From the NCBI GenBank assembly GCA_013151015.1, contig JAADJA010000016.1, positions 1-49,260 on the forward strand: 49,260 nt of DNA, in the 5' to 3' direction. Made by a program: the position numbers and the translations under genes. A model generated the notes under the pieces. That model saw only the letters and a program-made list of their open reading frames with translations, was not told where the DNA came from and ran no database searches. Shown here in pieces: positions 5,798-43,921 of this stretch; position 1 is the stretch's first letter; each line of letters opens with the position of its first letter. This DNA comes from Chlorobiota bacterium (GTDB lineage Bacteria > Bacteroidota > Bacteroidia > Bacteroidales > JAADJA01).

Positions 5798-7108
5798 TTA
5801 ATTAATATTATCGTTTTCAAAGAAATTCTTGATCTTGTTGAGGAACGAAAGCGGGCTGTTTTCCGAAGATTCGGGTTTCTCCTGTTCTTCAATGGTTTCA
5901 TCGTTTTCTTCTACTTCCGGCTCATCTGAAATCTCCACGTTCACCATGTCCTTTTTGGTGCGCTCCATCCCTTCGATCACAAGGCCAATACCGGTGGAAT
6001 ACATCGGACTTGCAAGTTCTTCAGGTACATCCTTGGCAAGGTGTTCGTTGGGATAGCCGATGCGCGTGTCCATCCCGGTAATAAACTCCGTCAACTGCGT
6101 AAGGTCCTTTAATAGCGCTCCACCACCGGTAAGCACAATTCCGGCAATCAACTTTTTCTCATAACCCGAATTTTTGATTTCGTAATAAACATGCTCCACG
6201 ATTTCCTCCATACGGGCCTGGATAATGCTGGCAAGGTTTTTCAAACTTATTTCCTTGGGCGGACGGCCACGAAGACCGGGAATTGCAACGATTTCGTCAT
6301 CGCGGTTTTCGCTGGCAAGGCTCGATCCGAATTTCACTTTCAGTTCCTCGGCATGTTTGCGGATAATGGTACAGCCTTCTTTCACGTCTTCGGTAATCAC
6401 ATCGCCACCAAAGGGGATAACTGCCGTATGCCGGATAATCCCATCCTGGAAAATGGCAATATCTGTTGTCCCACCACCAATATCAACCAAAACAACACCT
6501 GCCTCTTTTTCCTCCTCGCTCAAAACAGCATTGGCAGAAGCAATAGGCTCAAGGATCAGGTCAACCACTTCAAGACCGGTTTTGGTAACACATTTATAGA
6601 TGTTCTTGGCCGCCGTGGTTTGCCCGATAATAATATGGAAATTTGCTTCCAGGCTATTGCCCAACATCCCCACCGGTTCCTTGATCCCCTGTTCGTTGTC
6701 AATCACATATTCCTGTGGGATCACGTCAATGATCTCCTCCCCCGGGCTCATGTTCAGGTTGTACATATTGTTGTGCAGGGTCTCTACATCATGCTTGCTG
6801 ATCTCGTCCTCATAGTTCTCGCGGATAATCCCGCCCCGGTGTTGCAGGCTCTTGATGTGCTGTCCTGCAATACCCACGTTCACGTACTTGATGTTGACAC
6901 CTGATTTCTGGGAGGCTTCATCAATGACAGTCCGGATGGAGTTTACGGTATTTTCGATATTTGAGACCACGCCCCTTTTCACACCGATCGATTCGGTCTT
7001 TCCATGGCCCAGTATTTCAATTTTCCCATGCTCGTTTATCCTGCCAACAATGGCTGCAATTTTTGTTGTCCCGATGTCCAAGCCAACTACAATTTCTGAA
7101 GGTTTCAT
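5798..7108 (-). CDS. ftsA: Cell division protein FtsA
   Basis: FtsA is the actin-like ATPase that tethers FtsZ to the membrane. The ATP-binding motifs are intact: VGLDIGTTKIAAIVG near the start, VLVDIGGGTTDIAIF in the middle and TGGGALL toward the end. A C-terminal acidic linker leads to a final FLNKIKNFFEN stretch that fits the membrane-targeting amphipathic helix. I place the start at the ATG giving MKPSEIVVG (436 residues). The frame stays open upstream to 7165, but that part (MAKYRPSDTRQ...) is encoded by repeat-like TTGTCC/TGTCCG intergenic DNA and does not match the family. It lies between ftsQ and ftsZ as usual. Confidence 0.95.
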   Translation of the reverse strand: MKPSEIVVGLDIGTTKIAAIVGRINEHGKIEILGHGKTESIGVKRGVVSNIENTVNSIRTVIDEASQKSGVNIKYVNVGIAGQHIKSLQHRGGIIRENYEDEISKHDVETLHNNMYNLNMSPGEEIIDVIPQEYVIDNEQGIKEPVGMLGNSLEANFHIIIGQTTAAKNIYKCVTKTGLEVVDLILEPIASANAVLSEEEKEAGVVLVDIGGGTTDIAIFQDGIIRHTAVIPFGGDVITEDVKEGCTIIRKHAEELKVKFGSSLASENRDDEIVAIPGLRGRPPKEISLKNLASIIQARMEEIVEHVYYEIKNSGYEKKLIAGIVLTGGGALLKDLTQLTEFITGMDTRIGYPNEHLAKDVPEELASPMYSTGIGLVIEGMERTKKDMVNVEISDEPEVEENDETIEEQEKPESSENSPLSFLNKIKNFFENDNIN

Positions 7109-28460: not shown

Positions 28461-30707
28461 ATGAAAAAAACCATTCCTTTAGATATTTTTTTGTTGGTTT
28501 TTTTCTTTTTCCCCTTTTCTGTTATCTCGTTTTCAAACAATTCAATACTCGACAGCCTTTTATCAAAATACCAAAATCCAACTGATAACACTGCGAAATT
28601 GGAGCTATTAAAAAAAATTGCACATTATTGGGCCGATAAAAATAGTGATTCTTCTATATTATATGGTAAAAAACTAATTTATGAGGCTGAAAATGCAAAA
28701 GATACGTTATTTATATCCAGTGGTTTTTTGCAAGTAATAAATCAATTTATTTTTTTGAGCGAATACGATTCTTCATTGTATTATTCATTTCGGTGTTTGG
28801 AATATGTCAGGGCCCGTAGTTTGTACAAATTACAATATGCCATGCTTTTATTGTTTATAGGGGATCAATACAGGGCAACTGCACAATATGACAATTCGAT
28901 ACGCTATTTAACAGAGGCCTGGGCTCTTGCAAACAAAACTAATAACACTAAATTAAAATCAAATATCTTAAACAGGTTGGCGGCTGTATATTTTGAGACA
29001 GGAAAGTACGACGAAGCCCTTTTATGGGCCGATTCTTCGCTTAGACTTGCTGAATTTATCAACAACAAAGTACTTTCATCAAACAACCTGGCCATAAAAG
29101 GAGCTATATTCCGCGACCAAGGAGATTATAAAAACGCTATCGAAAGTTTTCAGGAGGCTTTGCGCTTTATAAGGGAATTTGACAATCCAAGTGGGGAAGC
29201 AAATATATTAAATAATATATCCATTACTTATTTTCTTTTGAAAGACTACCATAACACGGTACAATATGCCATGGAATCTTATGATATTTCATCAAAATTA
29301 AACCTAAAAGCCCTTAGTGTTGTATCTTCAGAATACCTTGCCAGGGCTTATGCCGAAATTGGGGAATTTGAACTTGCCTATAAATACCATGTTATCTTTG
29401 AACATAAGCGAATGGGGATTTTCTCAGAGAAAAGCGATAAGCTGATATCGGAACTCAACACGAAATATGAAACACAAAAAAAAGAACAGCAGATCGAAAA
29501 ACAACAAATGCAGATTGAAAAGAAAGACTATAAGATCAAGAAAAAAAACATAACCCTGACCATGTTCTTGTTCATTTTTGTTTTTCTGGCCGTATTCTCA
29601 ATTTATATATACTCTACCCGTAAAAAGCTAAAAAAGGTCAACCGGCTTTTAACCAAGAAAAACTTACAAATAAGCAAGCAGAAAATCGAAATTGAAACTT
29701 ATGCAAAAAAGGTAAACAATGCCTATGAAAAATTACGGGAACTTGACGAATACAAGCAAGCCATGACAAGTATGCTGGTGCACGATTTAAAAAACCCGCT
29801 TAATTTATTAGCAAACCTTGATGTGTTTGACAATGAAAAGGAAAAGAGCGTAATCGTAAACCGTGCGAGCAAACAAATGCTTATCCTGATCATGAACCTC
29901 CTTGACATTAACAAAGCCGAGAACAATAGTTTGACCCTGAACAAAACCAAAGTCGATTTGTTTGAGATTATTCGGCTGTCATTACAGGAAACTGAGTATT
30001 TATGTTTGGAAAAAAACATTGAAATATTGAACAAGTCAACTTTCAATTACGGTTTTATGGCCGATAAGGATATTTTAACACGGGTTTTTATAAATTTCCT
30101 TACCAACGCAATCAAGTACTCACATTCCAACGACACTATTTCCATAAACACGGCCATAACCAAGGACAACCTCCTAAGGATTTCCGTGAAGGATGAGGGG
30201 ATCGGGATAGCTAAAGAACACCATGAGGTCATTTTTGAAAAATTCGCACAGGTAAAAAAAATCAAATCGGGCCAAATCGGCTCTACCGGTTTAGGCCTCG
30301 CATTTTGCAAAGTCGCTGCCGAATCCCATGACTGGGTGATTGGTGTCGATTCCGAACCCGGCAATGGTGCTGAATTTTGGATTATGCTAAATGAGTATCA
30401 AATAAACTCGGGGTCTTTTACTACATTTGAAGAAAATGCCGTAGAAACCGAAAATAACATAGAAGAACAGGAAATTTCAGAAAATGTTAAGCTGGCATTG
30501 GAACCTTTTCTTCTGGGACTGAAAAAACTGGATGTTTACAGGATTTCTGAAATAAAAAAATTGATACGGGATATCCGTAAAAAGGATATAAAAGAAATGA
30601 CACAATGGTTAAATGAGGTAAGGAAAGCCGCTGAAACCTTTAATGAAAAAAAATATATCAAATTGATGGAAGAAGGCTCTAAAAGATGGGGGATAGACAG
30701 TAGGTAG
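28461..30707 (+). CDS. TPR sensor histidine kinase
   Basis: This is a 748-residue membrane sensor. The signal peptide is at about 6-26, and periplasmic TPR-like repeats cover about 40-330 (ILNRLAAVYFETGKYDEALLWADSSL is one helical pair). A lysine/glutamine-rich coiled coil (about 335-360) leads to a transmembrane helix near 365-388. The HisKA box is MLVHDLKNPLNLL (His near 440). HATPase motifs are the N-box NFLTNAIKYS (about 540), G1 DEGIGIA and G2 GSTGLGLAF (about 608). An extra C-terminal helical segment of about 90 residues (670-748, ALEPFLLGLKKLDVYRISEI...) follows. It is directly upstream of its presumed response-regulator partner. Confidence 0.93.
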   Translation: MKKTIPLDIFLLVFFFFPFSVISFSNNSILDSLLSKYQNPTDNTAKLELLKKIAHYWADKNSDSSILYGKKLIYEAENAKDTLFISSGFLQVINQFIFLSEYDSSLYYSFRCLEYVRARSLYKLQYAMLLLFIGDQYRATAQYDNSIRYLTEAWALANKTNNTKLKSNILNRLAAVYFETGKYDEALLWADSSLRLAEFINNKVLSSNNLAIKGAIFRDQGDYKNAIESFQEALRFIREFDNPSGEANILNNISITYFLLKDYHNTVQYAMESYDISSKLNLKALSVVSSEYLARAYAEIGEFELAYKYHVIFEHKRMGIFSEKSDKLISELNTKYETQKKEQQIEKQQMQIEKKDYKIKKKNITLTMFLFIFVFLAVFSIYIYSTRKKLKKVNRLLTKKNLQISKQKIEIETYAKKVNNAYEKLRELDEYKQAMTSMLVHDLKNPLNLLANLDVFDNEKEKSVIVNRASKQMLILIMNLLDINKAENNSLTLNKTKVDLFEIIRLSLQETEYLCLEKNIEILNKSTFNYGFMADKDILTRVFINFLTNAIKYSHSNDTISINTAITKDNLLRISVKDEGIGIAKEHHEVIFEKFAQVKKIKSGQIGSTGLGLAFCKVAAESHDWVIGVDSEPGNGAEFWIMLNEYQINSGSFTTFEENAVETENNIEEQEISENVKLALEPFLLGLKKLDVYRISEIKKLIRDIRKKDIKEMTQWLNEVRKAAETFNEKKYIKLMEEGSKRWGIDSR

Positions 30708-30744
30708 CGGAAAAGCATTTAACAAATTAAGTTTTAACCCTTGA

Positions 30745-30803: not shown

Positions 30804-31637
30804 ATGACAAAAAATAAAATCCTCGTAGTTGACGATGTTATAGAAAGCCTAAGGACGATAATCTCGATCATTGAAAAGTACCACCCTGAATACATCATTT
30901 ACCAGGCAAATAATGGCCAATCGGCATTAACGGCAATGGAAAATATTACGCCCGATATTATTGTTTCCGATTGGGAGATGCCAGAGATGAACGGAATTGA
31001 GCTGATTCAGTCCCTAAAGAAATCACCTGCCCTGATGCATATACCAATAATAATTGCCACGGGGGTAATGCTATCGGACGAAGACCTAAAGACAGCACTC
31101 GATGCCGGTGCCATGGATTATTTAAGGAAACCGATAAACCCGGTGGAATTAGTGGCCCGGATGCATTCGGCCATTACCATTGCACAATATCAAAAAAAAC
31201 TCATCAAGGAAAAAGAGAGCAAAATACTTGAAAACGCCATCTTTACCACCAGGGTAAACCGTTTTTTGGGCAAGGCTTCATCAAGCATCAAAGAAATAAT
31301 TGAAACCGGGGGAAATAAAGCTATTATGGAAAAAGGACTTGCTGAAATAGCTTTTAAAATCGATGAGAAATTAAAAGGCAATGGTTGGCAAAAATTCACG
31401 ATCGCCTATAATAAACTTCACCCCGGTTTCGAACAAAGACTGCTTACTTTGCACCCCTTGCTCAATCCAACCGAATTAAAACTATCGGCCTTGATACGGC
31501 TTGGGCTTAGCGTGAAGGAACTTTCTGCGCTTATGTTCGTGACCACCGAAAGCATGAAGGTTTTCAGGTCGCGCCTAAGAAAAAAACTGGAACTGCAAAC
31601 CGGGCAAAACCTGCAATCCTATTTGTGTTCTGTATGA
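30804..31637 (+). CDS. Response regulator with C-terminal HTH
   Basis: This 277-residue protein has an N-terminal receiver (about 3-125) with acidic pocket DD (10-11), phosphoacceptor Asp56 in IIVSDWEMPEMNG, and the conserved Lys in DYLRKPINP. The linker (about 130-215) is helical. The C-terminus (about 216-270) is a GerE/LuxR-like helix-turn-helix (NPTELKLSALIRLGLSVKEL...STESMKVFRSRLRKKL), a form common in Bacteroidota. It is paired with the upstream kinase. The next downstream unit carries the paired TTGYTAACC promoter, so it is a candidate regulator of that promoter class, by location only. Confidence 0.92.
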   Translation: MTKNKILVVDDVIESLRTIISIIEKYHPEYIIYQANNGQSALTAMENITPDIIVSDWEMPEMNGIELIQSLKKSPALMHIPIIIATGVMLSDEDLKTALDAGAMDYLRKPINPVELVARMHSAITIAQYQKKLIKEKESKILENAIFTTRVNRFLGKASSSIKEIIETGGNKAIMEKGLAEIAFKIDEKLKGNGWQKFTIAYNKLHPGFEQRLLTLHPLLNPTELKLSALIRLGLSVKELSALMFVTTESMKVFRSRLRKKLELQTGQNLQSYLCSV

Positions 31638-32191: not shown

Positions 32192-32282
32192 TTGTTAACC
32201 TATTGTTAACCTCCACAACCATTTTTGTTAACCTTTTGCTAACCACGATATTTTTATTTGCCGGTACGCACAAATACTTTTG
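32192..32282 (+). promoter_or_regulatory. Paired TTGYTAACC promoter, site 1
   Basis: TTGTTAACC occurs at 32192-32200, 32203-32211 and 32225-32233, and TTGCTAACC at 32236-32244. Starts within each pair are 11 bp apart, and the pairs are 33 bp (three periods) apart. After the last box come exactly 30 nt and then TACTTTTG (32275-32282), a perfect TAnnTTTG -7 element. It drives the T9SS protein at 32375. The same layout recurs at 36770 and 39744. Confidence 0.75.
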
Positions 32283-32374
32283 CCGGTGAAAACAATTTAT
32301 TCACTAAAAACAAATTTATGCATGAAAAAAAACAGTTCATTATTCATTTATTCATTCATTAAATTCAAATCATT

Positions 32375-33859
32375 ATGGTAAAAATCAAACATTTCTTAAT
32401 CGCATGCTCCCTGCTGGTGCTTTATGGCATAAGTTACGGACAGGCGGGCATGACGGTCGCTGCCGGGACCGATGTTACGGTGGTGGCCGGGACAACGCTC
32501 GACATTGGCTCGGGCAACCTGCTGCTAAAGGACGGCTTAAGCACGTCCCCTTCCTTTCTCGAAAAAGGGTCGCTTACCTTCTCGGGGGGCGGGGAAGCTT
32601 TTATTGAACAGTACATTGGCCAGGACGCATGGCATATTGTATCGCCTTCGGTCAGCAATGAGGTGAACGGCGCTTATATGTGGATGTACATGTACAGCTA
32701 CACCGAACCGAACAATTCGTGGTTCAGCATGAGCGACCCTGCCACTATCCCACTCAATGCCGGACAGGGTTACTTTTTGTGGTCTTATACCACAGACCCC
32801 AACGGGACATTCCCGCCCTCGCCCGATTCGGCAGTGCTCAATGGCATATTGAACAAGGCCGACTTTGGTTTAACGCTCTCGAACACCGATGCAAGCCCAA
32901 AATCAGGGTGGAACCTTATTGGCAACCCATACCCTTGTGCCATCGACTGGAACAACAACTGGACAAGCACAAACGTGGGGCCCACGGTTTACCTCTACGA
33001 TAATGCCGGAACCGGGAATTACCAGACCTGGAACCACAACACGGGCGTGGGAACCAATGGAAAGACCGATGGCAACATAGCCTCCGGGCAGGGCTTTTGG
33101 GTCAGGGCCGCCGACACGACCGGTGCGGCAACCTCCATCACGATCCCACAGGCCGAACGCCTGCACAGCACTCAGGCGTTCCTGAAAAACACCTGGGAAA
33201 ACCTGCTCAGGCTCAACGTGGCGGGCGACAACGGGTCCGACGAGACCGTGATATGCTTCGATCAAGGGGCAACCGCCGGTTTCGACGTAGAACTCGATGC
33301 ATGGCACGTGCCGGGAAGGGACGGGGCGCCCTCGGTCTATTCCGTACAGGGGAACCAGCACCTGGCCGTCAACTTCCTGACCTCATTGGAGATAAACCCT
33401 TTGGTACCATTAGACTTTATCGCTTTGGCACCGGGCAGCTTTATCATTACGGCAACGGGCATGGGGTCTTTCCCCGCCGATGTGCCGCTATGGCTCGAGG
33501 ACACCAGGGACGATGTGTTCCAGGACCTGCGGGTAAACGAAAGCTATGCCTTCGCCTCAAGCCCACTGGACGCAGCGGGACGTTTTGTGCTGCATTTCTC
33601 CAACCCGCTGGGCATTGACAACCCCAACAATTTTGACATGGTAAGGATATTCGCTTATGAAAACAAGGTGTATGTGAACATACAGGGCCAACCGGACAAC
33701 GGTTCCCATTGCACCATCTTCGACATGATGGGCAGGAAAGTGGTCAAAAGGGCCGTGGAACAAGGGCTCACCACCATTGCGGTGCCCGATCGGGGCTATT
33801 ACCTCGTAACGGTGCTGACGCACAGGGGGATGACAACCGAAAAAGTGTTTATCAAATAA
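32375..33859 (+). CDS. T9SS sorting-domain secreted protein
   Basis: This 494-residue exported protein has a signal peptide at about 1-22 (LIACSLLVLYGISYGQ). A beta-rich body contains PSVSNEVNGAYMWMYMY, GWNLIGNPYPCAIDW and GQGFWVRA, the W-x-L-x-GNPYP block that recurs in Bacteroidota surface proteins. The C-terminal T9SS type A sorting domain covers about 425-494 (IFDMMGRKVVKRAVEQG ... GYYLVTVLTHRGMTTEKVFIK). It lacks a recognisable catalytic domain. The DNA is clearly richer in GC than its neighbours. It is followed after 12 nt by the PID-CTERM-like gene, so the two are one unit under the TTGYTAACC promoter. Confidence 0.85.
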   Translation: MVKIKHFLIACSLLVLYGISYGQAGMTVAAGTDVTVVAGTTLDIGSGNLLLKDGLSTSPSFLEKGSLTFSGGGEAFIEQYIGQDAWHIVSPSVSNEVNGAYMWMYMYSYTEPNNSWFSMSDPATIPLNAGQGYFLWSYTTDPNGTFPPSPDSAVLNGILNKADFGLTLSNTDASPKSGWNLIGNPYPCAIDWNNNWTSTNVGPTVYLYDNAGTGNYQTWNHNTGVGTNGKTDGNIASGQGFWVRAADTTGAATSITIPQAERLHSTQAFLKNTWENLLRLNVAGDNGSDETVICFDQGATAGFDVELDAWHVPGRDGAPSVYSVQGNQHLAVNFLTSLEINPLVPLDFIALAPGSFIITATGMGSFPADVPLWLEDTRDDVFQDLRVNESYAFASSPLDAAGRFVLHFSNPLGIDNPNNFDMVRIFAYENKVYVNIQGQPDNGSHCTIFDMMGRKVVKRAVEQGLTTIAVPDRGYYLVTVLTHRGMTTEKVFIK

Positions 33860-33871
33860 AAACGACAAGAT

Positions 33872-34108
33872 ATGAAAAAGATCATAAAATATACAATAGC
33901 CATAATAGCCATGGTGCTTTTATCGTTCGGCCTGTTCGCACAGAGCCCACCCCACCCCAACGGAGGAGGCGGCCCCGGCAGCGGCAACGCCCCGGTGGGC
34001 GGTGGCGCGCCAATCGATGGGGGATTGACTTTCCTGTTGATAATGGGGGCGGCCTATGGCAGCAAAAAACTATTTAACAAAAACGATAACAATCAAACAA
34101 ATAATTAA
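33872..34108 (+). CDS. PID-CTERM-like small sorted protein
   Basis: This 78-residue protein has a signal peptide (about 1-24, ending GLFAQ), a glycine/proline-rich middle ([18 protein letters not shown]) and a C-terminal sorting-signal-like tail: GAPIDGG, a hydrophobic segment [12 protein letters not shown], then basic SKKLFNK. This tripartite tail is the pattern I associate with the Bacteroidota PID-CTERM family; the role is unknown. It lies 12 nt after the T9SS gene. The frameshifted gene at 36923 encodes a protein of the same general plan. Confidence 0.72.
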
Positions 34109-34123
34109 TAAACAAGGTAAAGG

Positions 34124-34137
34124 CAAGGCATGCCTTG
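34124..34137. other. Palindrome CAAGGCATGCCTTG
   Basis: A perfect 14-bp palindrome lies between the PID-CTERM-like gene and the FISUMP gene, 25 nt before the next start codon. It could be a short hairpin or an operator; nothing further supports either. Confidence 0.35.
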
Positions 34138-34161
34138 TCTCAACAATTAAAAAAAAACAAA

Positions 34162-35334
34162 ATGAAAAAAACAACTTTATTATTAATGGCAATTATTATG
34201 ATTGCAGGTTACACACTAACGGCACAGGTGGCCATTAACACCGATGGAAGTACCGCAGACGGCTCTGCGATGCTGGACGTAAAAAGCAGCGCAAAAGGCT
34301 TATTGCCCCCGCGTATGACAGAAGCCCAGCGCAATGCCATAAGCAGCCCCGCAGCAGGACTTATTATTTACTGCACAGATTGTGTGGAAATGCAAATGTA
34401 CAACGGCACCCAATGGGTGGGCATTACCACGGCCACGGCCACACCGCCAAACCAGGCCCCCGTGGCTTCCAATGTGAACTTTAGCGGCTCGCTGAATGTT
34501 GGTGATCTGCTTACCGGCTCATATACTTACAGCGATGTTGACAGCGACCCGGAAGGTAGCTCAACTTACCAGTGGTACAACGCAGATGACGGCTCCGGCA
34601 CCAACCAGGCGGCCATTAGCGGCGCTACCGCCTTGACATATACCCTGCAGGCAGCAGACGACACCAAATACATCAGCTTTGAGGTTACGCCAGTGGCTGC
34701 CACCGGGGCAAGCCTGGGCACCGCTGTGATGAGCGCTTATCAGGGGCCGGTAACTTCTGGCCCACCAACTGTTTACAACCCCAGCACAGGCAAAACCTGG
34801 GTAGACCGCAACCTTGGGGCCTCGCAAGTGGCAACAAGCAGCACCGATGCGGCAGCTTATGGCGACCTGTACCAGTGGGGCAGGCTGGCCGACGGGCACG
34901 AAAGCCGTACCAGCGGAACCACCACTACCCTTAGCAGCACAGATGTTCCCGGACACGGTAATTTTATTGTAACTTCCACATCTCCTAACGATTGGAGAAG
35001 CCCACAAAATGATAACCTATGGCAGGGGGTTAGCGGAACCAACAACCCATGCCCTGCCGGTTTCCGTTTACCTACAATAACAGAACTGGAAGGCGAACGT
35101 TATTATTGGACACCACAAAATGCGGCAGGTGCATTTAGTTCGGTTTTAAAACTAACTGTTGCCGGTGCCAGACCTTACAATAGTGGTGCAGTAAGCCTTA
35201 ATGGACAAGGCTACTACTCATCAAGTACACTTAATAATAATTCTGCCGTAAACATGAATATCTATGACACTGGCACTTACAGTTGGAGTGCGAGCCGTGC
35301 ATATGGACTAACTGTCCGTTGCATCAAGGATTAG
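34162..35334 (+). CDS. FISUMP-domain exported protein
   Basis: This 390-residue exported protein has a signal peptide at about 1-20 ([17 protein letters not shown]). A short coiled/beta head follows ([31 protein letters not shown], a frequent Bacteroidota N-terminal module). An Ig-like domain (about 110-200) contains [20 protein letters not shown]. The C-terminal FISUMP (Fibrobacter succinogenes major paralogous) domain covers about 215-390, with [38 protein letters not shown] and [15 protein letters not shown] take the ATG at 34162; an earlier in-frame start lies inside AT-rich leader DNA. A strong hairpin follows 80 nt downstream. Confidence 0.85.
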
Positions 35335-35415
35335 GTGTGCACTGAAGCAATTAATCAGGGTACACATGCACATTGTACTATTAAACTGATGATACCACAG
35401 GTATCGGCCAAAAAC

Positions 35416-35440
35416 AAGGGGTAGCCGCTGGCTACCCCTT
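35416..35440 (+). terminator. Strong hairpin after the FISUMP gene
   Basis: AAGGGGTAGCC-GCT-GGCTACCCCTT is a perfect 11-bp stem with a 3-nt loop, 81 nt after the stop. Only ATAATGG follows, so it lacks a real T-run. It is probably an RNA 3'-end structure or a bidirectional terminator. Confidence 0.55.
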
Positions 35441-35528
35441 ATAATGGCACTAAGGGCCGGGCAGTGTATAATGCCCGTAAAGGTTTAAAAAAAAATCGTT
35501 CTTTGATTTATTTAACTCACCCCCGTAC

Positions 35529-35657
35529 ATGAATGTTTCCGAAGAGTTCAAAAATGAATTTCAAAATTCAGGATCCATTGACACGTTTTATCTAAAAAAA
35601 ATCGTGAAATCCAAAATCATACGATTCTTTGTAAAGTGGGAAGGCCCCCAACAATAA
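35529..35657 (+). CDS. Possible 42-residue protein
   Basis: A short frame opens ATG AAT GTT TCC and encodes MNVSEEFKNEFQNSG..., ending FFVKWEGPQQ. The composition looks protein-like, but I recognise no family. It lies in a 721-nt gap, flanked by two copies of the word TCGTTCTTTGATnTA (about 35497 and 35693). It may be a gene fragment or chance. The start codon is preceded by a C-rich stretch with no convincing ribosome-binding site. Confidence 0.25.
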   Translation: MNVSEEFKNEFQNSGSIDTFYLKKIVKSKIIRFFVKWEGPQQ

Positions 35658-35731
35658 ACTGTCAATAGAATAATGGCAACTGCAATAGTTTGATCGTTCT
35701 TTGATATACTTGCCTACCGGCTTCTATCGCC

Positions 35732-35945
35732 CATCACAGTTTAAAACTGTGGTGGCTTCAGACACTAGTGCATCAATTCATAAATATGTTTGTTTATTTT
35801 CACTTCGGTTTTTTTCTTTGGATAAGGCAAAAATTTAAAGCATAGCCGTAGCTACGGTTTCAATTTTTAACGCAATATAAAGGAAAAAGAGTGTGAAAAT
35901 ACCAGTATGTAAATACCAGTATGTATTTGTGATTTGATGCACTAG
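35732..35945. repeat. Hairpin copy B and 12-bp inverted repeats
   Basis: CATCACAGTTT...AACTGTGGTG (35732-35754) is followed by CTTCAGACACTAGTGCATCAA. The 12-mer CTAGTGCATCAA (35765-35776) recurs inverted as TTGATGCACTAG at 35934-35945, bounding about 157 bp that includes a direct repeat TACCAGTATGTA (35900-35925). Just outside lies GGTTTGCAACC. The whole looks like a small mobile-element relic. The rest of the gap 35335-36055 holds no supported gene. Confidence 0.55.
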
Positions 35946-36032
35946 CGGTTTGCAACCGTAAAGTTTCAAGTTCCTGATTCGCTTCGGGCGAAACCGGCAC
36001 TTTTCCCTATTGCACATCTCAACAAAAACGCT

Positions 36033-36040
36033 TACTTTTG
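36033..36040 (+). promoter_or_regulatory. -7 element for the coiled-coil protein gene
   Basis: TACTTTTG is a perfect TAnnTTTG match, with TTGC about 19 nt upstream as a plausible -33. The start codon at 36056 would lie about 9 nt after the transcription start. Confidence 0.5.
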
Positions 36041-36055
36041 TAAAAAAACAATTCA

Positions 36056-36535
36056 ATGAAAAACAGTTTGTGCATATTATTACTGTTATTGTTGACCGTA
36101 CCGGGCTATAAGGCCAATGCACAAGGCACGGACACAAAGGCCAACACGCCTGTGCCCTTCACGCTTGCCGACAGGGACAGGCTATTGAAATTGGAAAACA
36201 GCGTGAAAATGCTCGATGTGAAAATCGATGCCACGAACCAAAGGATTTCCTCATTGGAAAAAAGCATCAACGGACATTTTGATGCACAAGACAAACGTTT
36301 TGATGCACAAGACAAACGTTTTGATGCCCTACAAAACCAGATGAACATTCTTTTCGGGTTTTTGTTCTTGATCCTTGGCGGGGTGATGTCGCTGATAGCT
36401 TTTGTTATTTACGACAGGCGGATCATATTGAGACCGCTGAACCAAAAGCAAGAGGAGATGGAAACCGCCCTCATAAAATTTTCAAGAAAGAACAAGGACT
36501 TGCGGGAAGCCCTCCAAAAAGCCGGGATATTGTAG
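36056..36535 (+). CDS. Exported coiled-coil membrane protein
   Basis: This 159-residue protein has a signal peptide (about 1-23, ending NAQ), a coiled coil (about 38-98) with MLDVKIDATNQRISSLEKSI, and an internal tandem duplication of FDAQDKR encoded by two exact 21-bp DNA repeats near 36281-36322. One transmembrane helix follows (about 101-122, LFGFLFLILGGVMSLIAFVIY) and then a basic, helical cytoplasmic tail. This type of short coiled-coil protein is common in Bacteroidota, with no known role. Confidence 0.75.
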   Translation: MKNSLCILLLLLLTVPGYKANAQGTDTKANTPVPFTLADRDRLLKLENSVKMLDVKIDATNQRISSLEKSINGHFDAQDKRFDAQDKRFDALQNQMNILFGFLFLILGGVMSLIAFVIYDRRIILRPLNQKQEEMETALIKFSRKNKDLREALQKAGIL

Positions 36536-36621
36536 TCCTTTCCCTTTGCCCATCACAGCTTGCAGCCCTCTCTCCCATTGCCCGTCTTTCGTAATACTTG
36601 GCAACATCGCCCATCATTGCC

Positions 36622-36755
36622 CATCACAGTTTGCAACTGTGGTGGGATCAGACACTTTTGGTTTGTAAGCAAAACACAACGCAAGCGTGGACACTTGCTC
36701 CATTTTGAAGTGCTCCCAACAGTAGTGTCGGCTTCGCTTCGAGCGAAACCGACAC
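36622..36755. repeat. Hairpin repeat copy C and GTGTCGG hairpin
   Basis: CATCACAGTTT...AACTGTGGTG (36622-36644) and TCAGACACTTTTGG are followed by a GCAAGCGTGGACACTTGCT block and then a long hairpin at 36725-36755: GTGTCGG-C-TTCGCT, loop TCG, AGCGAA-A-CCGACAC (13 pairs with one mismatch). A partial extra copy (GCCCATCACAGCTTGCAGCCC) precedes at 36547. These fill the 387-nt gap before the next promoter; no gene is supported there. Confidence 0.7.
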
Positions 36756-36769
36756 CCTCAAAAACTCCT

Positions 36770-36827
36770 TTGTTAACCTATTGTTAACCGAATAATTTGG
36801 CAGGCCAATCAAGGTTATATATTTTTG
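36770..36827 (+). promoter_or_regulatory. Paired TTGYTAACC promoter, site 2
   Basis: TTGTTAACC occurs at 36770-36778 and 36781-36789 (11-bp period), followed by exactly 30 nt and then TATTTTTG (36820-36827), a TAnnTTTG -7 element. There is only one pair here, unlike sites 1 and 3. It precedes the frameshifted small gene at 36923. Confidence 0.72.
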
Positions 36828-36922
36828 CCTTTGAAACTAAAAGCCAGATTGTTGCATATGGCAGCAAGTGTGCAGGTTTGTGGCAACCTGGGCTTGTGGA
36901 AAACAAACAAGAACCTTGGAAA

Positions 36923-37128
36923 ATGAAAACAAAGACAATTATGGCATTCATCGCAATGTATGTTTTTTTTGGGCTTATACGGGCACAAAATGCCCCCAAT
37001 CCTTTGAGCGGGGGGCAACGGGAGGCCGTTCGCACGACACTTCCATCTTGGTTGTTTTGTTCGTGTTGCTGCTAATGCTCACAGCATTCACCGTATATAA
37101 ATACAGAAGAAGGGACAGGCATATTTAA
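36923..37128 (+). pseudogene. Frameshifted small sorted-protein gene
   Basis: The first frame encodes a signal peptide (MKTKTIMAFIAMYVFFG...RAQ) and NAPNPLSGG, then runs out of frame to a TAA at 37073. Beyond a G6 tract (37010-37015), the other frame gives ATGGRSHDTS, a transmembrane segment (ILVVLFVLLLMLTAF) and a basic tail KYRRRDRHI. With seven G the two join into one protein of about 68 residues: signal peptide, Gly-rich linker, hydrophobic helix, basic end. That is the plan of the PID-CTERM-like protein at 33872. It could be a true mutation, a phase-variable slip or a sequencing error. Confidence 0.6.
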
Positions 37129-37332
37129 TATCTGCACCGGGTCTAAAATATCCACGATAATGCCCTGTGCAAGCATTTTGGCAGCGGTCCCCGGCCAAAA
37201 CCGGCAACTAACGGCCAGTACATGATAGTGGAACACATAAAAAAGCGTTCTTTTAATTTGTTTAAATTAGCAGTTTGGGGGGTTTCGGTTATACATGAGA
37301 GGCCGGCTCCCCCTTTTTTTAAAAAAAATGCC

Positions 37333-37557
37333 ATGGACACAATCAAAACAACATCAGCGACAATAAAAGGCTATGATTACAACGGACCCAACGAAGTATT
37401 GGATATCCTTACCTGTGATGGCACTATTTACCGGTATTTCGATGTACCGCTTAAAATATTCAAGGGCCTGTTGGAGGGCAACGACCCGGGTGGCTATTAC
37501 CAGAAAAACATCCGGAAAAAGTTCAGGCGCTTGTTCAAGGCCTACGATTTTGGTTGA
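37333..37557 (+). CDS. KTSC-domain protein
   Basis: This 74-residue protein is a single KTSC domain (named for the lysyl-tRNA synthetase C-terminus, where it also occurs). The pattern is visible: TTSATIKGYDYNGPNEVLDI, DGTIYRYFDVPLKIFKGL, GGYYQKNIRKKF. The function is not established. I take the ATG at 37333. The frame runs back to 37222, but that part does not match the domain and has a non-coding look. Confidence 0.78.
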   Translation: MDTIKTTSATIKGYDYNGPNEVLDILTCDGTIYRYFDVPLKIFKGLLEGNDPGGYYQKNIRKKFRRLFKAYDFG

Positions 37558-37594
37558 AAAAAACCGCCAACATCCATATTGCAGAAACGATGAG

Positions 37595-38065
37595 ATGAAA
37601 AAAAAGCCATATACTTTAATTGCCCTAATTTTCTTTTTCATTATGGGACAGATGGCATTCCCGTCCAGTACAAGCTTACGGACAACAGCTACAACCGGTC
37701 ACGCTGTCCAAAAATCTGGTTTACAGGGCAAGGGGGAGGTTGGTCATCGTTCGCACAGCCGCCCGGGCAACACTTTTGCCATTGGCCCCGGGAAAAAGAA
37801 AAGGAAAAAGAAAAGGCCACCGATAGGGAAACACAAGAAAGCAAAAAGAAAAGGAAGGCACAAAGCTTTCAAGAAGGGAAACAGACACAAAAAAAAACCA
37901 CTTCACCTTGCCTGCTCGAACTTTATCAATGACTTTTACCAAAATATTTACGACCATGAAACAAACATTTTGTATTTTAACGCTGTCCCCCCTTCTTTTT
38001 TTGTTGTCCTGTGCACCGGGACCCCTGACGTTAAAGATAAGCAGCAAGCAGGATATGGGGTTTAG
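37595..38065 (+). CDS. Exported, very basic Lys/Arg-rich protein
   Basis: This frame encodes 156 residues. It has a signal peptide (about 1-22, PYTLIALIFFFIMGQMAFP), a Ser/Thr/Gly-rich spacer, then a strikingly basic block (about 68-105: GKKKRKKKRPPIGKHKKA ... GNRHKKK). I recognise no family. The last part overlaps the next lipoprotein gene by 110 nt and does not look protein-like. A nine-A tract (about 37893-37901) precedes it; a one-base shift there would end the protein TSPCLLELYQ near 37931, without the overlap. The true C-terminus is therefore uncertain. It could bind anionic polymers or nucleic acid at the cell surface. Confidence 0.5.
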   Translation: MKKKPYTLIALIFFFIMGQMAFPSSTSLRTTATTGHAVQKSGLQGKGEVGHRSHSRPGNTFAIGPGKKKRKKKRPPIGKHKKAKRKGRHKAFKKGNRHKKKPLHLACSNFINDFYQNIYDHETNILYFNAVPPSFFVVLCTGTPDVKDKQQAGYGV

Positions 38066-39263
38066 CATCGTTACCTATTCCAATTTTGAGTCCGATACGC
38101 TCATGTCGGGTACGGTTAGTGCTGGCATATTATCGGAAACCCCTGTGGATTATCGGGGCTTTGCCCTGCTCACTATAAACAACACCTTTTCCTATCCCCT
38201 TATAATCGGAAATGAAGATATCCACATTGATTTTACAAAGCCCGGGGCCGCCCCCGAAATAAAAGAAGGTGACGAGAACCGTTTTTTTTATACGTTTTAT
38301 GGAGCTTACAATCTTTTAAATTCTCAATTGCGCTTTTATAACAATAAAAAAAACAGGATGGCCGGAAACGATTCCTTGTACCGGGAAATTGTTGCAATAA
38401 CGGATTCGCTTAACCAGGAAAAGGAACTTTTGGTTTCCGGACTGCCACAAAAAAATTACCCTGTTGCAAGTGCAATTTTGCAGGAAAAACTCCTTGAAGA
38501 ATCAAGTTGGGGCATTAAATCGTTGGACGAACTGCACCAAAAACAAAAAGGGTTTGCGCAATTCGCTTCTGGCAATTATCCGTATTTACAGCATAGCCAA
38601 CAGCTTTCGGCATTGATAAACCAGTCGTTTATGATGCTGGAATACATAAACTATTATGAAAGCATTGAAAAAACAGGTGACAAAAAAACCGATATAGACA
38701 AAATCAAAGAGCTGTTGCGTTCCGAAATGATCGACCAAACACAATTGTGGATAGATGCCCTAAAACCTTATGTCCCGGAACCGGTTATACTGGCCCAATG
38801 CGTTCAGGCCTTTTATAACAGGTCGATGACAACAAAGGCGATGGAAATAATATCGGCATTTGGCGAACTGGCAAAATGTGAGGGGGACGGGGACGGACAA
38901 ATTAATTTTCCAGAAGCCTTCGATGTTGTGAAGGGCGATGGATATACAATTATAAATACACACACCCTTAACCCGGAGAAAATTATAATAATGGTTGACA
39001 ACGAATGTGTCTTTTCCAAAGTGTTGGCAATACAAGCGGTGCGGGAACACGAAAAAAGCCCCATACCAATCATAATCCTCCCCAAAGGAAAACTTGATAG
39101 TGAAATACTTGCATTGGACAAGCTTTGTGTCAAGGATTTGTACTTTGTAAAGGAAAAAGCCTGGGTTAACAACGCTATAATGGACGGGCACAAATACCCT
39201 TATTATTATAAGTTGGGTGCTTCCAATAAAGTGTTAACTACAGGTTGGGCCGCTTGCCTGTAA
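37956..39263 (+). CDS. Lipoprotein, degenerate thioredoxin-like
   Basis: This 435-residue lipoprotein has signal peptide and lipobox LLFLLSC (Cys near 19). The N-terminal part (about 25-105) is beta-rich with TLMSGTVSAGILSE...GFALLTINN...FSYPLIIGNEDI, like the DUF4369-type domain that precedes thioredoxin folds. A long helical middle follows (about 110-300). The C-terminus (about 325-435) resembles a thioredoxin fold (EKIIIMVDNECVFSKVL...IPIIILPKG), but the CxxC motif is absent, with only one Cys at that place. An oxidoreductase role is therefore unlikely. I take the ATG at 37956; 37929 is an alternative. Confidence 0.65.
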   Translation: MKQTFCILTLSPLLFLLSCAPGPLTLKISSKQDMGFSIVTYSNFESDTLMSGTVSAGILSETPVDYRGFALLTINNTFSYPLIIGNEDIHIDFTKPGAAPEIKEGDENRFFYTFYGAYNLLNSQLRFYNNKKNRMAGNDSLYREIVAITDSLNQEKELLVSGLPQKNYPVASAILQEKLLEESSWGIKSLDELHQKQKGFAQFASGNYPYLQHSQQLSALINQSFMMLEYINYYESIEKTGDKKTDIDKIKELLRSEMIDQTQLWIDALKPYVPEPVILAQCVQAFYNRSMTTKAMEIISAFGELAKCEGDGDGQINFPEAFDVVKGDGYTIINTHTLNPEKIIIMVDNECVFSKVLAIQAVREHEKSPIPIIILPKGKLDSEILALDKLCVKDLYFVKEKAWVNNAIMDGHKYPYYYKLGASNKVLTTGWAACL

Positions 39264-39358
39264 TAATTGATCATCTGCAAGTATGTAGTTTGTATTGGGT
39301 GTACGACAAATTGCACAATCGAACAAATATCCTAAAATTCCACAGCCCTGCCCGTTCC

Positions 39359-39496
39359 GGCCAATGTCAATAAGTTTAGAGATGCTCTTGCTCTAAAAAC
39401 CTCGATATGATTAAAACTTTAGGGGTCAGGCTGAGCCTGTCGAAGCTTGTTTCATATTAACCGGATGCACAAAGTCTTAACTTATTGACATTGGCC
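39359..39496. repeat. MITE-like element with 22-bp inverted ends
   Basis: GGCCAATGTCAATAAGTTTAGA (39359-39380) and its inverted partner TCTTAACTTATTGACATTGGCC (39475-39496) differ by one base and bound about 94 bp. Inside lies GTCAGGCTGAGCCTGTCGAAGCTTG, related to the CTTCGACAAGCTCAG motif. It is flanked by GTTCCGG on the left and CTTTCCGG on the right. The gap 39264-40009 holds no other supported gene apart from a possible leader ORF. Confidence 0.65.
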
Positions 39497-39596
39497 CTTT
39501 CCGGTAGGCGGTTACAGTGCTATGTTGATATTGCAATTGTTTATATTGCCATTAATACCGCATCCTTGCCCGTTCCGGTAGGCGGGTACGATGCCA

Positions 39597-39722
39597 CATC
39601 ACAGATTGCCTGCCCAGTGCAGGTGGATATCTGTGGTGCATCCAGACACTTTTGGTTTGTGACCAAAGATTCAATTTAGAACGTATCGCAAGCGAGGGTG
39701 CTTGCTACATCCGACACTTGCC
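39597..39722. repeat. CATCACAG hairpin repeat, copy D
   Basis: CATCACAGAT (39597-39606) pairs with ATCTGTGGTG (39629-39638). A nested CCTGC-CCAGT-GCAGG hairpin occupies the loop. Then come CATCCAGACACTTTTGGTTTGTG and CGCAAGCGAGGGTGCTTGCTACATCCGACACTTGCC. It is the most complete copy and ends 22 bp before the third TTGYTAACC promoter. Confidence 0.75.
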
Positions 39723-39743
39723 TTAGTGATATCCCCCCCAATA

Positions 39744-39835
39744 TTGTTAACCTTTTGCTAACCACCCCCTGCCCTTCTTGTTAACCTTTTGCTAACCAAA
39801 ATATTTTGACAGGCTGTTCACGCTATATACTTTTG
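39744..39835 (+). promoter_or_regulatory. Paired TTGYTAACC promoter, site 3
   Basis: TTGTTAACC at 39744-39752 pairs with TTGCTAACC at 39755-39763, and a second pair lies at 39778-39786 and 39789-39797. The period within each pair is 11 bp; the pairs are 34 bp apart. After exactly 30 nt comes TACTTTTG (39828-39835), a TAnnTTTG -7 element. It lies about 175 nt upstream of the protease start. Confidence 0.75.
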
Positions 39836-39868: not shown

Positions 39869-39964
39869 ATGTCACTCCCCACAAATAATTGTTATTGCCC
39901 TATTTTTAGGTTAGTAAATTTAAGGCCCGGATTTCATAAGGCCGGGCTTTTTTTAAAGCGTTGA
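39869..39964 (+). other. Possible leader ORF over an attenuator
   Basis: A 31-codon frame starts ATG TCA CTC CCC (MSLPTNNCYCPIF...) about 26 nt after the predicted transcription start and reads through the terminator hairpin at 39925-39954, ending TGA at 39962. It could be a regulatory leader peptide or chance; there is no protein-family evidence. Confidence 0.25.
39925..39954 (+). terminator. Terminator-like hairpin in the protease leader
   Basis: GCCCGG (39925-39930) pairs with CCGGGC (39942-39947) and is followed by seven T. It lies after the site-3 promoter and 56 nt before the protease start codon. It would either release an RNA of about 110 nt or act as an attenuator. Confidence 0.65.
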
Positions 39965-40009: not shown

Positions 40010-43000
40010 ATGATGAAAAAACATTGCGCCCTTATTTGGATTACCGTTTTAAGCTTTATTGCAACTGCTGCCCTTGCACAACAAAACCATATTGTGAAAA
40101 GGGGTGAAAGGCCTCCTATCAACTTACAGTCAGTACCGGGCAATGCCTATGAAAGAGGGGTCATAAAAATCAAGGTCAATAGATCGTTTACGGTTCAAAT
40201 GGACAACAACCCGGTTATGATGGGAAATGACGGGATAGTCCGTTTCAATATCACCGGTATCGATAAGTTGAACCAACAATATGGTGCCAAAGGTTTCAAT
40301 AAGCTGTTCGAGAGCAAGTCTTTCTCGCCTGAATTTTCGGAAAGACACCGGGCCTGGGGATTCCACCTTTGGTACACCTTATATTTCGATAAGAAAAGCG
40401 ATGTTAAGGAATTAGTGCGCGCATATATGCAATTAGATGAGGTTTCGGTAGCAGAACCCGAATATATAAAAAAAATGATCTCCTCCGTCCCCGCCACCTT
40501 TCGATCAAAAACCGGTGGAGGCGACAAGGGGCTGTCGCAATTGACCTGGCTCCCCAACGATCCTGATTTCTACCAGCAATGGCATTATGACAATACGGGG
40601 CAACAGGGGGGCACACCCGATGCGGATATTGATTTGCCGGAAGCCTGGGACATTGAAAGGGGGAATCCCAATGTAATAGTTTGTATAGAAGATGGTGGGA
40701 TACAGTACGAACACCCTGATCTGGCTGGAAATATGTGGTCGGGACTTGGCTGGGATTTCGTGAACGACGATGCCACTATCGAACCAGATTTCCATGGTAC
40801 ACACGTGGCTGGCACGGTTGCTGCCGTAAGCAATAACGGGATTGGTGTATCCGGGGTTGCCGGGGGTTCCGGGTCAAACGACGGGGTGCGCTTGATGTCG
40901 TGCCAGGTTTTTACCAATTCATCCAGCGGCGGGTTTCATCTGGCACCGGTTTATGCGGCCGACAACGGGGCATGTATTTCACAAAACAGTTGGGCATACA
41001 CCGCGCCAAATACATACGAACAGAGTGTATTGGATGCAATAGACTATTTTAACGCAAATGGGGGAGGTAATGCGATTGTGAACGGGGGAATAACGATTTT
41101 TGCCGCGGGCAATTCTGCTTCTTCTGACACCTATTATCCGGCTTACTATTCCGGTACATTTGCAGTTGCCGCCACAACCAACCAGGATATCAAGGCATAC
41201 TATTCTAATTTTGGTAGCTGGGTCGATATTTCCGCACCCGGTGGTGAAACAAACGTAGTGGATGCAGAGGGTGTTTTGAGCACAATTACAGGAAGTTCGT
41301 ATGGCTTTATGGCAGGGACATCAATGGCCTGCCCCCATACGTCGGGTGTGGCCGCCCTGATAGTCTCTTTGGCATACAATTTCCTTACGCCAGGCGATGT
41401 TGCCGATATTATCCTTACCACAACAGACGATATCGATGGCGTGAACCCCGGATATGTCGGCCAGCTTGGAACAGGACGCTTGAATGCCTATCAGGCATTG
41501 TTAAAAACACAGACATATCTTATATTGACAGCGGATTTTGAAGGGACCCCAACTTCTATCTTTTCAGGCAATTCAGTAATCTTTGATGATCTGTCAAATG
41601 CGCCTGACTCAATTATATCCTATTCCTGGACGTTTCCCGGTGGCACGCCTTCTTCGGCCAATACAGCCGGACCCCATAATATTATATATACTGCCCCGGG
41701 CAGCTATTCCGTTTCATTGACGGTTGACGATGGGGCCTCCACGGACACAGAAACCAAGACAAATTATATAAGTGTTTCCAATTGCTTTAACTGCCCTTCG
41801 GAAGGGAACATGGACTTTCAGACAAGCACGACCCTCGTCGGTTTTAATATGATAAACAATAGTTCGGCAAAACCTGCCGCCTATAACGATTATACTTCCT
41901 TGTCAACTGATGTCGCCCAAGGCACCACTTATAACCTTACGGTAAATATAAATACCGATGGTGCTTTTTCTGTTTATTCTGTTGCCTGGATCGATTGGAA
42001 CAAAAATTGCGATTTCTCGGATCCGGGCGAGACTTATAATCTCGGTTCGGCTTATAATGTTGCCAATGGGCCTGTCAGTGCGTCCCCGTATAGCATAAGT
42101 GTTCCGGCAGAGGCAACATTGGGAAGCACAAGGATGCGGATTTCCACAAAATACTTTGGATATGCCGGTCCTTGCGAAACCGGGTTTGATGGCGAAGTAG
42201 AAGATTATACCATAAATGTAATTGCAGATGCCCTTCCCGGGGATGATTGTGCAACTGCCCAAGACCTGTCAACGCTCACCAGCCCATATAGTGCCACGAC
42301 TACCGGGTATAGCAATATTTTTGATATTTGCTCGATGGGGTCTTCTGCCGACAGAATTTTTTATATTGATGTCCCCTTTGGATGTGAAATCGAAATATGG
42401 CAGTCGTGGAACGATTATGATTCGAGGCATACGATGCGGTATGCTGGCAATTGTCCCGGTGATATCGAAATAGGATGTATCGATGACGATGATTATACCC
42501 CGATAAGCTGGACAAATAATACAGGCCAGCTAGAAAGGGTTTGGTTTATAGTGGCAGGATATGGATCGGGATCAGGTGACTTTACACTTGAATGGTCGTT
42601 AAAGGCAATTAACGATGATTGTGCCAATGCACTGGCCATTAACGAAGTAAGCGACTTGGCCTTTGATACACGTACTGCTATGCCAAGCGGTGTACAACCA
42701 AGCTGTGGCGGCCTCCCCCCTGCTGATATTTGGTATGCCTTTAGCCCAAGCCTTACCGGCATAGCCACATTCGACCTTTGTGGAAGCTCATTCGATACCA
42801 GGCTCAGTATTTGGGACACTTGCGGTGGTACGGAAATAGCTTGCAACGATGATAATGGCCCAGCCTGCCCTGGCGTCCCGTCCAGTATTGAATTATGGGT
42901 TACTACCGGGACAACTTATTATGTTCAAGTAGGTGGTTATGAAACAATTTCAGGTGTGGGCGATTTAACGATCCAGATTTCCAACAATCCTCCTGTTGCT

Positions 43001-43921
43001 GACTTTGAAGCTGATATCATTAACCCTGTCGTGGATGAAACCGTAAGCTTTACCGACCTTTCGACAAACAGCCCAGATTCCTGGTCATGGGTATTTACAC
43101 CTTCTACGTTTACTTATGTTGGAGGCACGAATGCAAACTCACAAAACCCACAGGTACAGTTCAATGCTACCGGGAATTATACTGTTGGCCTTACAGTGGG
43201 CAATTCGGCCGGCAACAATACAGAAACAAAAGTTGATTATATCAATGTGCAATATCCTGTTATCAACGTTGAGGTCAGCGTTTTCCTTGAAGGCCCGTAT
43301 TTTGGCCCGCTAATGAATACCGGAATCAATGCCATTTTACCTTCGTCACAACCGTTCAACGTAAGCCCATGGAATTACAATGGGACCGAAAACGCAACAA
43401 GCATCGCAACTGATATTGTTGACTGGGTACTCATAGATATCAGGGATGCAACTTCCGTGGAATTGGCAACTGCATCAACAAGTATTGGACGGCAGGCAGC
43501 ATTTTTGCGCAATGATGGAAAAGTGATTGGAATGGATGGAAGCCCAATATTGGATTTTACAACAACCTTATCAAACAACCTTTATGTGGCTGTTTACCAA
43601 CGTAACCATATTTCGATAATCTCGGCTTATCCTTTGGTCTCCTCCGGCGGCATTTACAATTATGATTTTTCGTCCGGTGATGGGCAGGCCTATGGCACCG
43701 GTTCACAAAAAAACCTGGGTGCAGGCGTTTATGGAATGTTTGCAGCTGATGCCGATGCCGATGGCAATGTAAATCCGGCCGACAAGTCCATTTGGGCAGG
43801 ACAAGCTGGCATCAACGGATATAATACCAGTGATTTTGATATGGACGGACAGGTGGGGAACCCCGATAAAAACGAAAACTACGTGCCAAACATAGGCAAG
43901 GCCAGTAATGTGCCACAATAA
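40010..43921 (+). CDS. Secreted subtilisin-like (S8) multidomain protease
   Basis: This is a 1303-residue exported protease. The signal peptide is at about 1-24 and a propeptide-like region at 25-165. The peptidase S8 catalytic triad motifs are IEDGGIQYEHPDL (Asp near 227), FHGTHVAG (His near 264) and GTSMACPHTSG (Ser near 438). Accessory domains are a PKD (about 510-595), a GEVED domain (about 600-735, FDGEVEDYTI), two Cys-containing pre-peptidase-like beta domains (about 740-865 and 868-985) and a second PKD (about 990-1080). The end is a Bacteroidota C-terminal module with dockerin-like DADADGNVNPADK and DFDMDGQVGNPDK. It ends NVPQ and has no classic T9SS type A tail. A terminator follows. 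Confidence 0.9.
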   Translation: MMKKHCALIWITVLSFIATAALAQQNHIVKRGERPPINLQSVPGNAYERGVIKIKVNRSFTVQMDNNPVMMGNDGIVRFNITGIDKLNQQYGAKGFNKLFESKSFSPEFSERHRAWGFHLWYTLYFDKKSDVKELVRAYMQLDEVSVAEPEYIKKMISSVPATFRSKTGGGDKGLSQLTWLPNDPDFYQQWHYDNTGQQGGTPDADIDLPEAWDIERGNPNVIVCIEDGGIQYEHPDLAGNMWSGLGWDFVNDDATIEPDFHGTHVAGTVAAVSNNGIGVSGVAGGSGSNDGVRLMSCQVFTNSSSGGFHLAPVYAADNGACISQNSWAYTAPNTYEQSVLDAIDYFNANGGGNAIVNGGITIFAAGNSASSDTYYPAYYSGTFAVAATTNQDIKAYYSNFGSWVDISAPGGETNVVDAEGVLSTITGSSYGFMAGTSMACPHTSGVAALIVSLAYNFLTPGDVADIILTTTDDIDGVNPGYVGQLGTGRLNAYQALLKTQTYLILTADFEGTPTSIFSGNSVIFDDLSNAPDSIISYSWTFPGGTPSSANTAGPHNIIYTAPGSYSVSLTVDDGASTDTETKTNYISVSNCFNCPSEGNMDFQTSTTLVGFNMINNSSAKPAAYNDYTSLSTDVAQGTTYNLTVNINTDGAFSVYSVAWIDWNKNCDFSDPGETYNLGSAYNVANGPVSASPYSISVPAEATLGSTRMRISTKYFGYAGPCETGFDGEVEDYTINVIADALPGDDCATAQDLSTLTSPYSATTTGYSNIFDICSMGSSADRIFYIDVPFGCEIEIWQSWNDYDSRHTMRYAGNCPGDIEIGCIDDDDYTPISWTNNTGQLERVWFIVAGYGSGSGDFTLEWSLKAINDDCANALAINEVSDLAFDTRTAMPSGVQPSCGGLPPADIWYAFSPSLTGIATFDLCGSSFDTRLSIWDTCGGTEIACNDDNGPACPGVPSSIELWVTTGTTYYVQVGGYETISGVGDLTIQISNNPPVADFEADIINPVVDETVSFTDLSTNSPDSWSWVFTPSTFTYVGGTNANSQNPQVQFNATGNYTVGLTVGNSAGNNTETKVDYINVQYPVINVEVSVFLEGPYFGPLMNTGINAILPSSQPFNVSPWNYNGTENATSIATDIVDWVLIDIRDATSVELATASTSIGRQAAFLRNDGKVIGMDGSPILDFTTTLSNNLYVAVYQRNHISIISAYPLVSSGGIYNYDFSSGDGQAYGTGSQKNLGAGVYGMFAADADADGNVNPADKSIWAGQAGINGYNTSDFDMDGQVGNPDKNENYVPNIGKASNVPQ

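Follow-up and report, generated by a model that had tools for sequence, protein, structure and literature searches.

The window analyzed here, a 49,260-nt stretch of contig JAADJA010000016.1 from a Chlorobiota bacterium, contains a pair of two-component genes on the forward strand. The first of them (28461..30707) codes for a histidine kinase, the proposed sensor, with Pfam matches to HATPase_c (1e-22) and TPR_12 (2.6e-18), in which an N-terminal signal or transmembrane segment, a TPR region, a transmembrane segment, an H-box (read in the sequence as MLVHDLKNPLN) and the HATPase domain follow one another. The second (30804..31637, in an open reading frame that opens at a TTG at 30741 and has an ATG start at 30804) codes for a response regulator, the proposed activator, with a Pfam match to Response_reg (2.5e-23). 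In the regulator, a REC domain is joined through a long helical linker to a C-terminal HTH with the recognition helix TTESMKVFRSRLRKK; the phospho-acceptor, D77, is invariant in 30 homologs.

Neither GerE nor any other HTH family was matched above threshold in the regulator, either in Pfam or in the 25 top-ranked NCBIfam rows, and Pfam gave no match to the winged-helix domain Trans_reg_C. A LytTR domain was found neither in the regulator nor in the other window genes scanned, and a PDB sequence search with the regulator returned, at the threshold used, receiver-domain matches only. Foldseek searches with the AlphaFold2 model of the full regulator (pLDDT 86.7) retrieved FixJ, LiaR, StyR and VraR, and with the HTH alone (pLDDT 89.1) the top matches were EL222, StyR, VraR, FixJ, LiaR and NarL (TMq ca. 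0.6, probability 1.00, E 0.03-0.1). A NarL/FixJ four-helix fold of the HTH is well suggested by these predicted structures. Since the E-values for the isolated HTH are weak and no GerE profile is matched, the regulator appears to represent a branch that is divergent by sequence.

Downstream of the regulator gene, five TTGYTAACC pairs are spread over three promoters, all on the forward strand. Each pair is made of a 9-bp box, a 2-bp gap and a second 9-bp box, so that the boxes are 11 bp apart from start to start. Site 1 (box starts at 32192, 32203, 32225 and 32236) contains a distal pair TTGTTAACC-TA-TTGTTAACC (32192..32211), a proximal pair TTGTTAACC-TT-TTGCTAACC (32225..32244) and a -7 element, TACTTTTG (32275..32282). 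Site 2 (box starts at 36770 and 36781) has a single pair, TTGTTAACC-TA-TTGTTAACC (36770..36789), followed by the -7 element TATTTTTG (36820..36827). At site 3 (box starts at 39744, 39755, 39778 and 39789), a distal (39744..39763) and a proximal (39778..39797) pair, both TTGTTAACC-TT-TTGCTAACC, precede the -7 element TACTTTTG (39828..39835). The double pairs are 33 bp apart at site 1 and 34 bp apart at site 3, and the end of the last box is separated from TAnnTTTG by 30 nt in all three cases. The positions, the 11-bp step, the 30-nt distance and the double pairs had been described in a sequence-only reading of this DNA; they proved exact to the base on recheck, provided that its "11 bp later" is read start to start.

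TAnnTTTG is the σA consensus in Bacteroidota (PMC9723704, PMC7366714), and it is matched at 3/3 sites. A TTG is present at the -33 position of sites 2 and 3, with spacers of 20 and 19 nt, respectively; at site 1, there is only a T-run at this place. No Rfam match was found between window positions 31600 and 40100, and a generic scan for σ70 promoters and terminators near site 3 gave nothing (the 11-nt loop of the hairpin located there exceeds the limit of the scan). This G+C hairpin with a T run (GGCCCGGATTTCATAAGGCCGGGCTTTTTTT; folding z of -2.2) lies at window positions 39918-39955, between the site 3 promoter and the start of the protease gene described below. It could be a terminator-like leader or attenuator; both the hairpin and the preceding TTTAGGTTAGTAA are conserved in a related genome, G010.

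The genes behind the boxes, all on the forward strand, code for exported proteins, as had been noted earlier from the sequence. The proposed site 1 target (32375..33859) codes for a 494-aa exported protein with a T9SS type A sorting domain (TIGR04183, 1.4e-6, above the cut-off). It possibly shares an operon with the next gene (34162..35334), whose exported product carries a FISUMP (Fib_succ_major)-like domain, with matches to TIGR02145 (6.6e-7) and PF09603 (5.6e-4) that are both below the cut-off. Site 2 is followed by a frameshifted miniprotein gene (36924..37128) with a signal peptide, a short linker, a transmembrane segment and a basic tail; the miniprotein is intact, with 65 aa, in G010. 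The proposed site 3 target (40010..43921) is a 1303-aa exported protease of the subtilisin family, with Pfam matches to Peptidase_S8 (2.5e-38), GEVED, PKD and a T9SS-associated domain. The C-terminal ca. 220 residues of the protease (43262-43921) form a module that is found in very many proteins of the genus. DxDxDG motifs reminiscent of dockerins occur in this module, which may be a T9SS or surface-anchoring domain that has no name yet.

In the window, 11 copies of TTGYTAACC were counted versus 1.3 expected, with a maximum of four in 100 shuffles, and the box pair at up to three mismatches occurs five times versus 0.17 expected from window shuffles. When the whole 4.3-Mb genome was searched for the pair at up to two mismatches, only the five places in the window were retrieved, all of them within ca. 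8 kb of the regulator gene; a reversed control pattern occurred once. The pair statistics and the single genomic cluster indicate that the box unit is real and strictly local, as would be expected of a pathway-specific local regulator. A genome-wide regulon, for which the sequence-only reading had proposed to look, is thus rejected, as no pair lies outside these ca. 8 kb at this number of mismatches. The absence of further genomic sites, which that reading had named as a refutation, does not refute the operator, since the arrangement recurs at orthologous and paralogous loci.

Among 17 genomes of the family, the sites are also present in G010. On contig C112 of this genome (locus L009), the miniprotein gene, a 451-aa gene and the protease gene follow in the same order as in the window, with an additional 505-aa gene ahead of the protease gene. 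The operator precedes both the miniprotein and the protease genes, with the 30-nt distance unchanged. At the gene orthologous to that behind site 2, 19 of the 20 bases of the pair are kept. At site 3, both pairs and the 14-nt length of the linker between them are retained, and the linker sequence has diverged; boxes that are kept while the linker drifts are, at the level of this alignment, a classic footprint. The protease is also present in G001 and G002 (73% and 65% identity over the N-terminal part), and neither an orthologous regulator nor the operator was found in these two genomes. Two further differences between the loci can be seen: the G010 gene for the 505-aa exported, possibly TlpA-like, protein, located between the 451-aa gene and the protease gene, is missing from window positions 39263-39744, and the region directly behind the G010 regulator gene lacks the site 1 block (ca. 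32192-35700).

The geometry was then examined in a set of 86 non-redundant full-length relatives of the regulator, from GTDB genomes and the order. We searched the 900 nt downstream of each regulator gene for repeats of any letters at pitches 9 to 23, with at least 7/9 identity (at least 8/9 in the strict form), located 29-32 nt before an exact TAnnTTTG. At pitch 11, 15 of the 86 loci were retrieved, 10 of them outside the genus of the window, versus 0-3 at any other pitch and one on the reverse strand. In the strict form, there were eight loci at pitch 11 versus 0-2 elsewhere (none at pitches 10 and 12-21). The profile of distances to TAnnTTTG peaks at 30 and is echoed at one and at two box steps beyond. 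A TAnnTTTG downstream of the regulator was accompanied by a repeat in 15/75 cases versus 9/927 elsewhere in the same loci (Fisher 2.5e-12), and most of these nine also carry family boxes. Across 18 collected promoters, a list gathered in part with a 28-33 gap filter, the gap was 30 (6 promoters) or 31 (12 promoters) only. A recognizable operator is found within the 900 nt in only ca. 1/6 of the relatives; in the others, it may be located elsewhere, diverged or unused.

The same genome has a paralog of the regulator (51% identity) on contig C96, with a similar kinase and regulator pair alongside. Directly behind this regulator gene, the boxes CTGTTAACATATTGCTAACA and CTGTTAACACATTGCTAACG stand 31 nt before TACATTTG, and the operator, CTGTTAACAYATTGCTAACR, which at zero mismatches is found only at its own locus, precedes a gene for a 944-aa T9SS-type protein. 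In G011, G012 and G014, the genes for relatives of the regulator with 33-36% identity are followed, 20-60 nt after the stop codon, by TGTCCACC or TTTTCCACC boxes arranged with the same geometry, and, by reading, FISUMP-like exported genes are again located behind the operator in G011 and G012. The genes behind operators look exported in ca. 11/16 loci (signal-peptide-like N termini, by reading), so the theme of a sensor pair that drives a neighboring surface protein recurs.

The letters of the boxes differ between relatives. TTGYTAAC pairs were found at 9/17 loci whose regulator has a V.R[SN]R helix versus 3/69 other loci (p 9e-6, in a statistic that ignores kinship), and two of the three exceptional loci hold a second regulator with a V.R[SN]R helix. 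Other pairings are those of the KKNR helix with TTKTCCAC and of the KKAR helix with TTGTACCC. By this computation, the box sequence appears to follow the recognition helix of the regulator. A Mantel test was significant but was set aside as proof of a specificity code, because box distance correlates with receiver-domain distance as well as with HTH distance (r 0.49 and 0.42).

The association was also approached from the side of the boxes. The full unit, TTGYTAACNNNTTGYTAACN{30,33}TANNTTTG, was searched for as an exact pattern, blind to regulators, in 393 genomes of the order, and was retrieved in three genomes other than that of the window; in 395 genomes sampled at the class level, it was absent outside the window's own genome. 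Two of the three matches adjoin regulators of the family: the match in G319 lies 153 bp downstream of a regulator with helix SIKVERSRLRKK, and that in G359 lies upstream of an operon of a kinase and a regulator with helix SLRVSKSRLRKK, both helices being close to the predicted type. The third match, in G280 (L255, ca. 6548-6640, minus strand), comprises three TTGTTAACC boxes in tandem, again with an 11-bp pitch, and precedes a gene for an exported protein; no regulator of the family was found within 13 kb around this site. A box-specific scan gave no match for large TPR proteins that share the HTH of the regulator.

Proceeding from the computed geometry, the local confinement, the conservation in G010, the 11-bp and 30-31-nt architecture found beside regulator genes of the family and the box letters that follow the recognition helix, we consider it likely that the boxes at the three promoters are operators of the adjacent regulator (30804-31637), a member of a Bacteroidota-wide family of NarL/FixJ fold, which, when phosphorylated, would bind head to tail and activate the genes for exported proteins. 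That the regulator is phosphorylated, that it binds the boxes as a head-to-tail pair and that it activates instead of repressing is what we infer. In the simplest mechanism, the TPR histidine kinase would phosphorylate the regulator, and two of its monomers, each with its HTH on one 9-bp box, would line up head to tail one helical turn (11 bp) apart; the second pair at sites 1 and 3 would add affinity. TAnnTTTG was mapped at -12 to -5 in Flavobacterium psychrophilum (PMC9723704). If the same holds here, the pair would span ca. -62 to -43, the proximal box would end at about -43, next to the -33 element on its upstream side, and the regulator, placed on a fixed face of the DNA, could touch σA RNA polymerase and recruit it to the neighboring exported-protein genes.

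Much of this had been suggested from the window alone. The idea of an activator on one-turn direct repeats at a fixed face, serving exported-protein genes, is supported and extends family-wide; the regulon turned out to be local rather than genome-wide. The two-component pair, a candidate by position at the time, is now strongly pointed to by comparative evidence, and the label "GerE-like" given to its HTH agrees with the predicted NarL/FixJ fold, with Pfam GerE undetected. The direct repeats had been taken as a LytTR-like trait that does not suit the GerE type; the comparative data point to the regulator with the GerE/NarL fold, and the reported lack of a LytTR regulator holds for the window genes scanned.

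It is unlikely that the regulator binds the boxes and acts as a repressor. The sign of regulation is not fixed by sequence alone, and tandem pairs can nucleate repressors too, but at sites 2 and 3 and in the orthologs ca. 6-9 nt separate the end of the proximal box from the presumed -33 TTTG downstream of it, the box overlaps neither the -33 nor the -7 element, and fixed spacing upstream of a promoter is typical of activators. We regard it as quite improbable that another transcription factor, of the OmpR/PhoB winged-helix or LytTR type, reads the boxes and that the adjacent regulator is a bystander. An 11-bp direct repeat near the promoter core is the classic geometry of the PhoB pho box (PMC2648988), and our inventory of regulators covers the scanned window genes only; however, among these genes none of the OmpR/PhoB or LytTR type was found, the operator occurs in the 4.3-Mb genome only beside this regulator, and the same architecture accompanies regulator homologs in many families, with box letters tracking the helix. 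That the promoters are recent copies of one another, so that the shared boxes and spacing merely reflect duplication, is very improbable, since their 30-nt spacers are identical at only 9-16 of 30 positions in pairwise comparison, the linkers, 13 and 14 nt long, also have different sequences, the orthologous G010 sites hold boxes and spacing though their linkers diverge, and distant relatives have the same geometry with other box letters, all this against a similarity that BLASTN detects over 60-97 nt (77-78%) between site 3 and each of sites 1 and 2. This similarity makes a shared ancestry of the promoters possible. It stops short of the longer flanks, and a long copied repeat, which the sequence-only reading had named as a refutation, is weakened as the full explanation by the divergence of spacers and linkers. 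Duplication followed by selection remains compatible with operators for the adjacent regulator.

Among known systems, the pho box of PhoB is a 22-bp element of two 11-bp direct repeats (PMC2648988). Direct repeats of 11-bp pitch just upstream of the promoter core and a response regulator as the reader are common to both systems, but here a NarL/FixJ four-helix HTH without a winged helix is predicted, the boxes have other letters, and the promoter behind the pair is of the -33/-7 type of Bacteroidota. The operator thus works like a pho-box system but is not one. With NarL, FixJ, VraR, LiaR and StyR, the regulator shares a REC domain and, by predicted structure, a C-terminal four-helix HTH; it differs from the NarL/FixJ (LuxR/GerE) family in the undetected Pfam GerE, the long helical linker between the domains and the strict one-turn direct repeats. 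The best-known sites of the NarL/FixJ family are inverted repeats. HTCS and SusR-like regulators of Bacteroides are likewise local and pathway-specific, and their operators are direct repeats with letters that change along the regulator tree. The repeats of HTCS, which have an AraC-type HTH, are on average 21 bp apart, and the distance is 67 or 77 bp for SusR-like regulators (PMC3878776), so neither has the 11-bp pitch, and those regulators serve polysaccharide loci, whereas the targets here are T9SS, FISUMP and protease genes.

In the open-access literature, no description was found of NarL-fold regulators from Bacteroidota whose operators are direct repeats with an 11-bp pitch. We think it reasonably likely that Bacteroidota-wide regulators of this fold have operators of strict one-turn direct repeats, set at a constant distance from the σA promoter and often behind the regulator gene, with a code that links a few recognition-helix residues to the middle bases of the 9-bp box, and switch on neighboring surface or secreted proteins. 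For Bacteroidota, regulators with known operators are few, and the secreted and surface proteins are mostly without an assigned regulator. The arrangement offers a rule that uses sequence only: from a regulator, one looks over a few hundred bases for tandem boxes that stand 30-31 nt ahead of a TAnnTTTG, and the gene behind them is the predicted target. A NarL-type domain is moreover combined here with a pho-box-like geometry, and the helix-to-base code is directly testable.

At three family loci, L080, L081 and L082, no obvious exported gene was seen behind the operator. A terminator-like hairpin is present there ca. 200-260 nt past the operator (L080 7013-7300, L081, L082 6880-7100) with no clear sense open reading frame, and what is transcribed may therefore be a small RNA or a leader; a simple terminator scan flagged the L082 hairpin only. 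At L106 and L097, which have TTGTACCC boxes, a short open reading frame of 59-93 aa with the motif LK.ALLKIL.DL is located ahead of a gene for a large exported protein.
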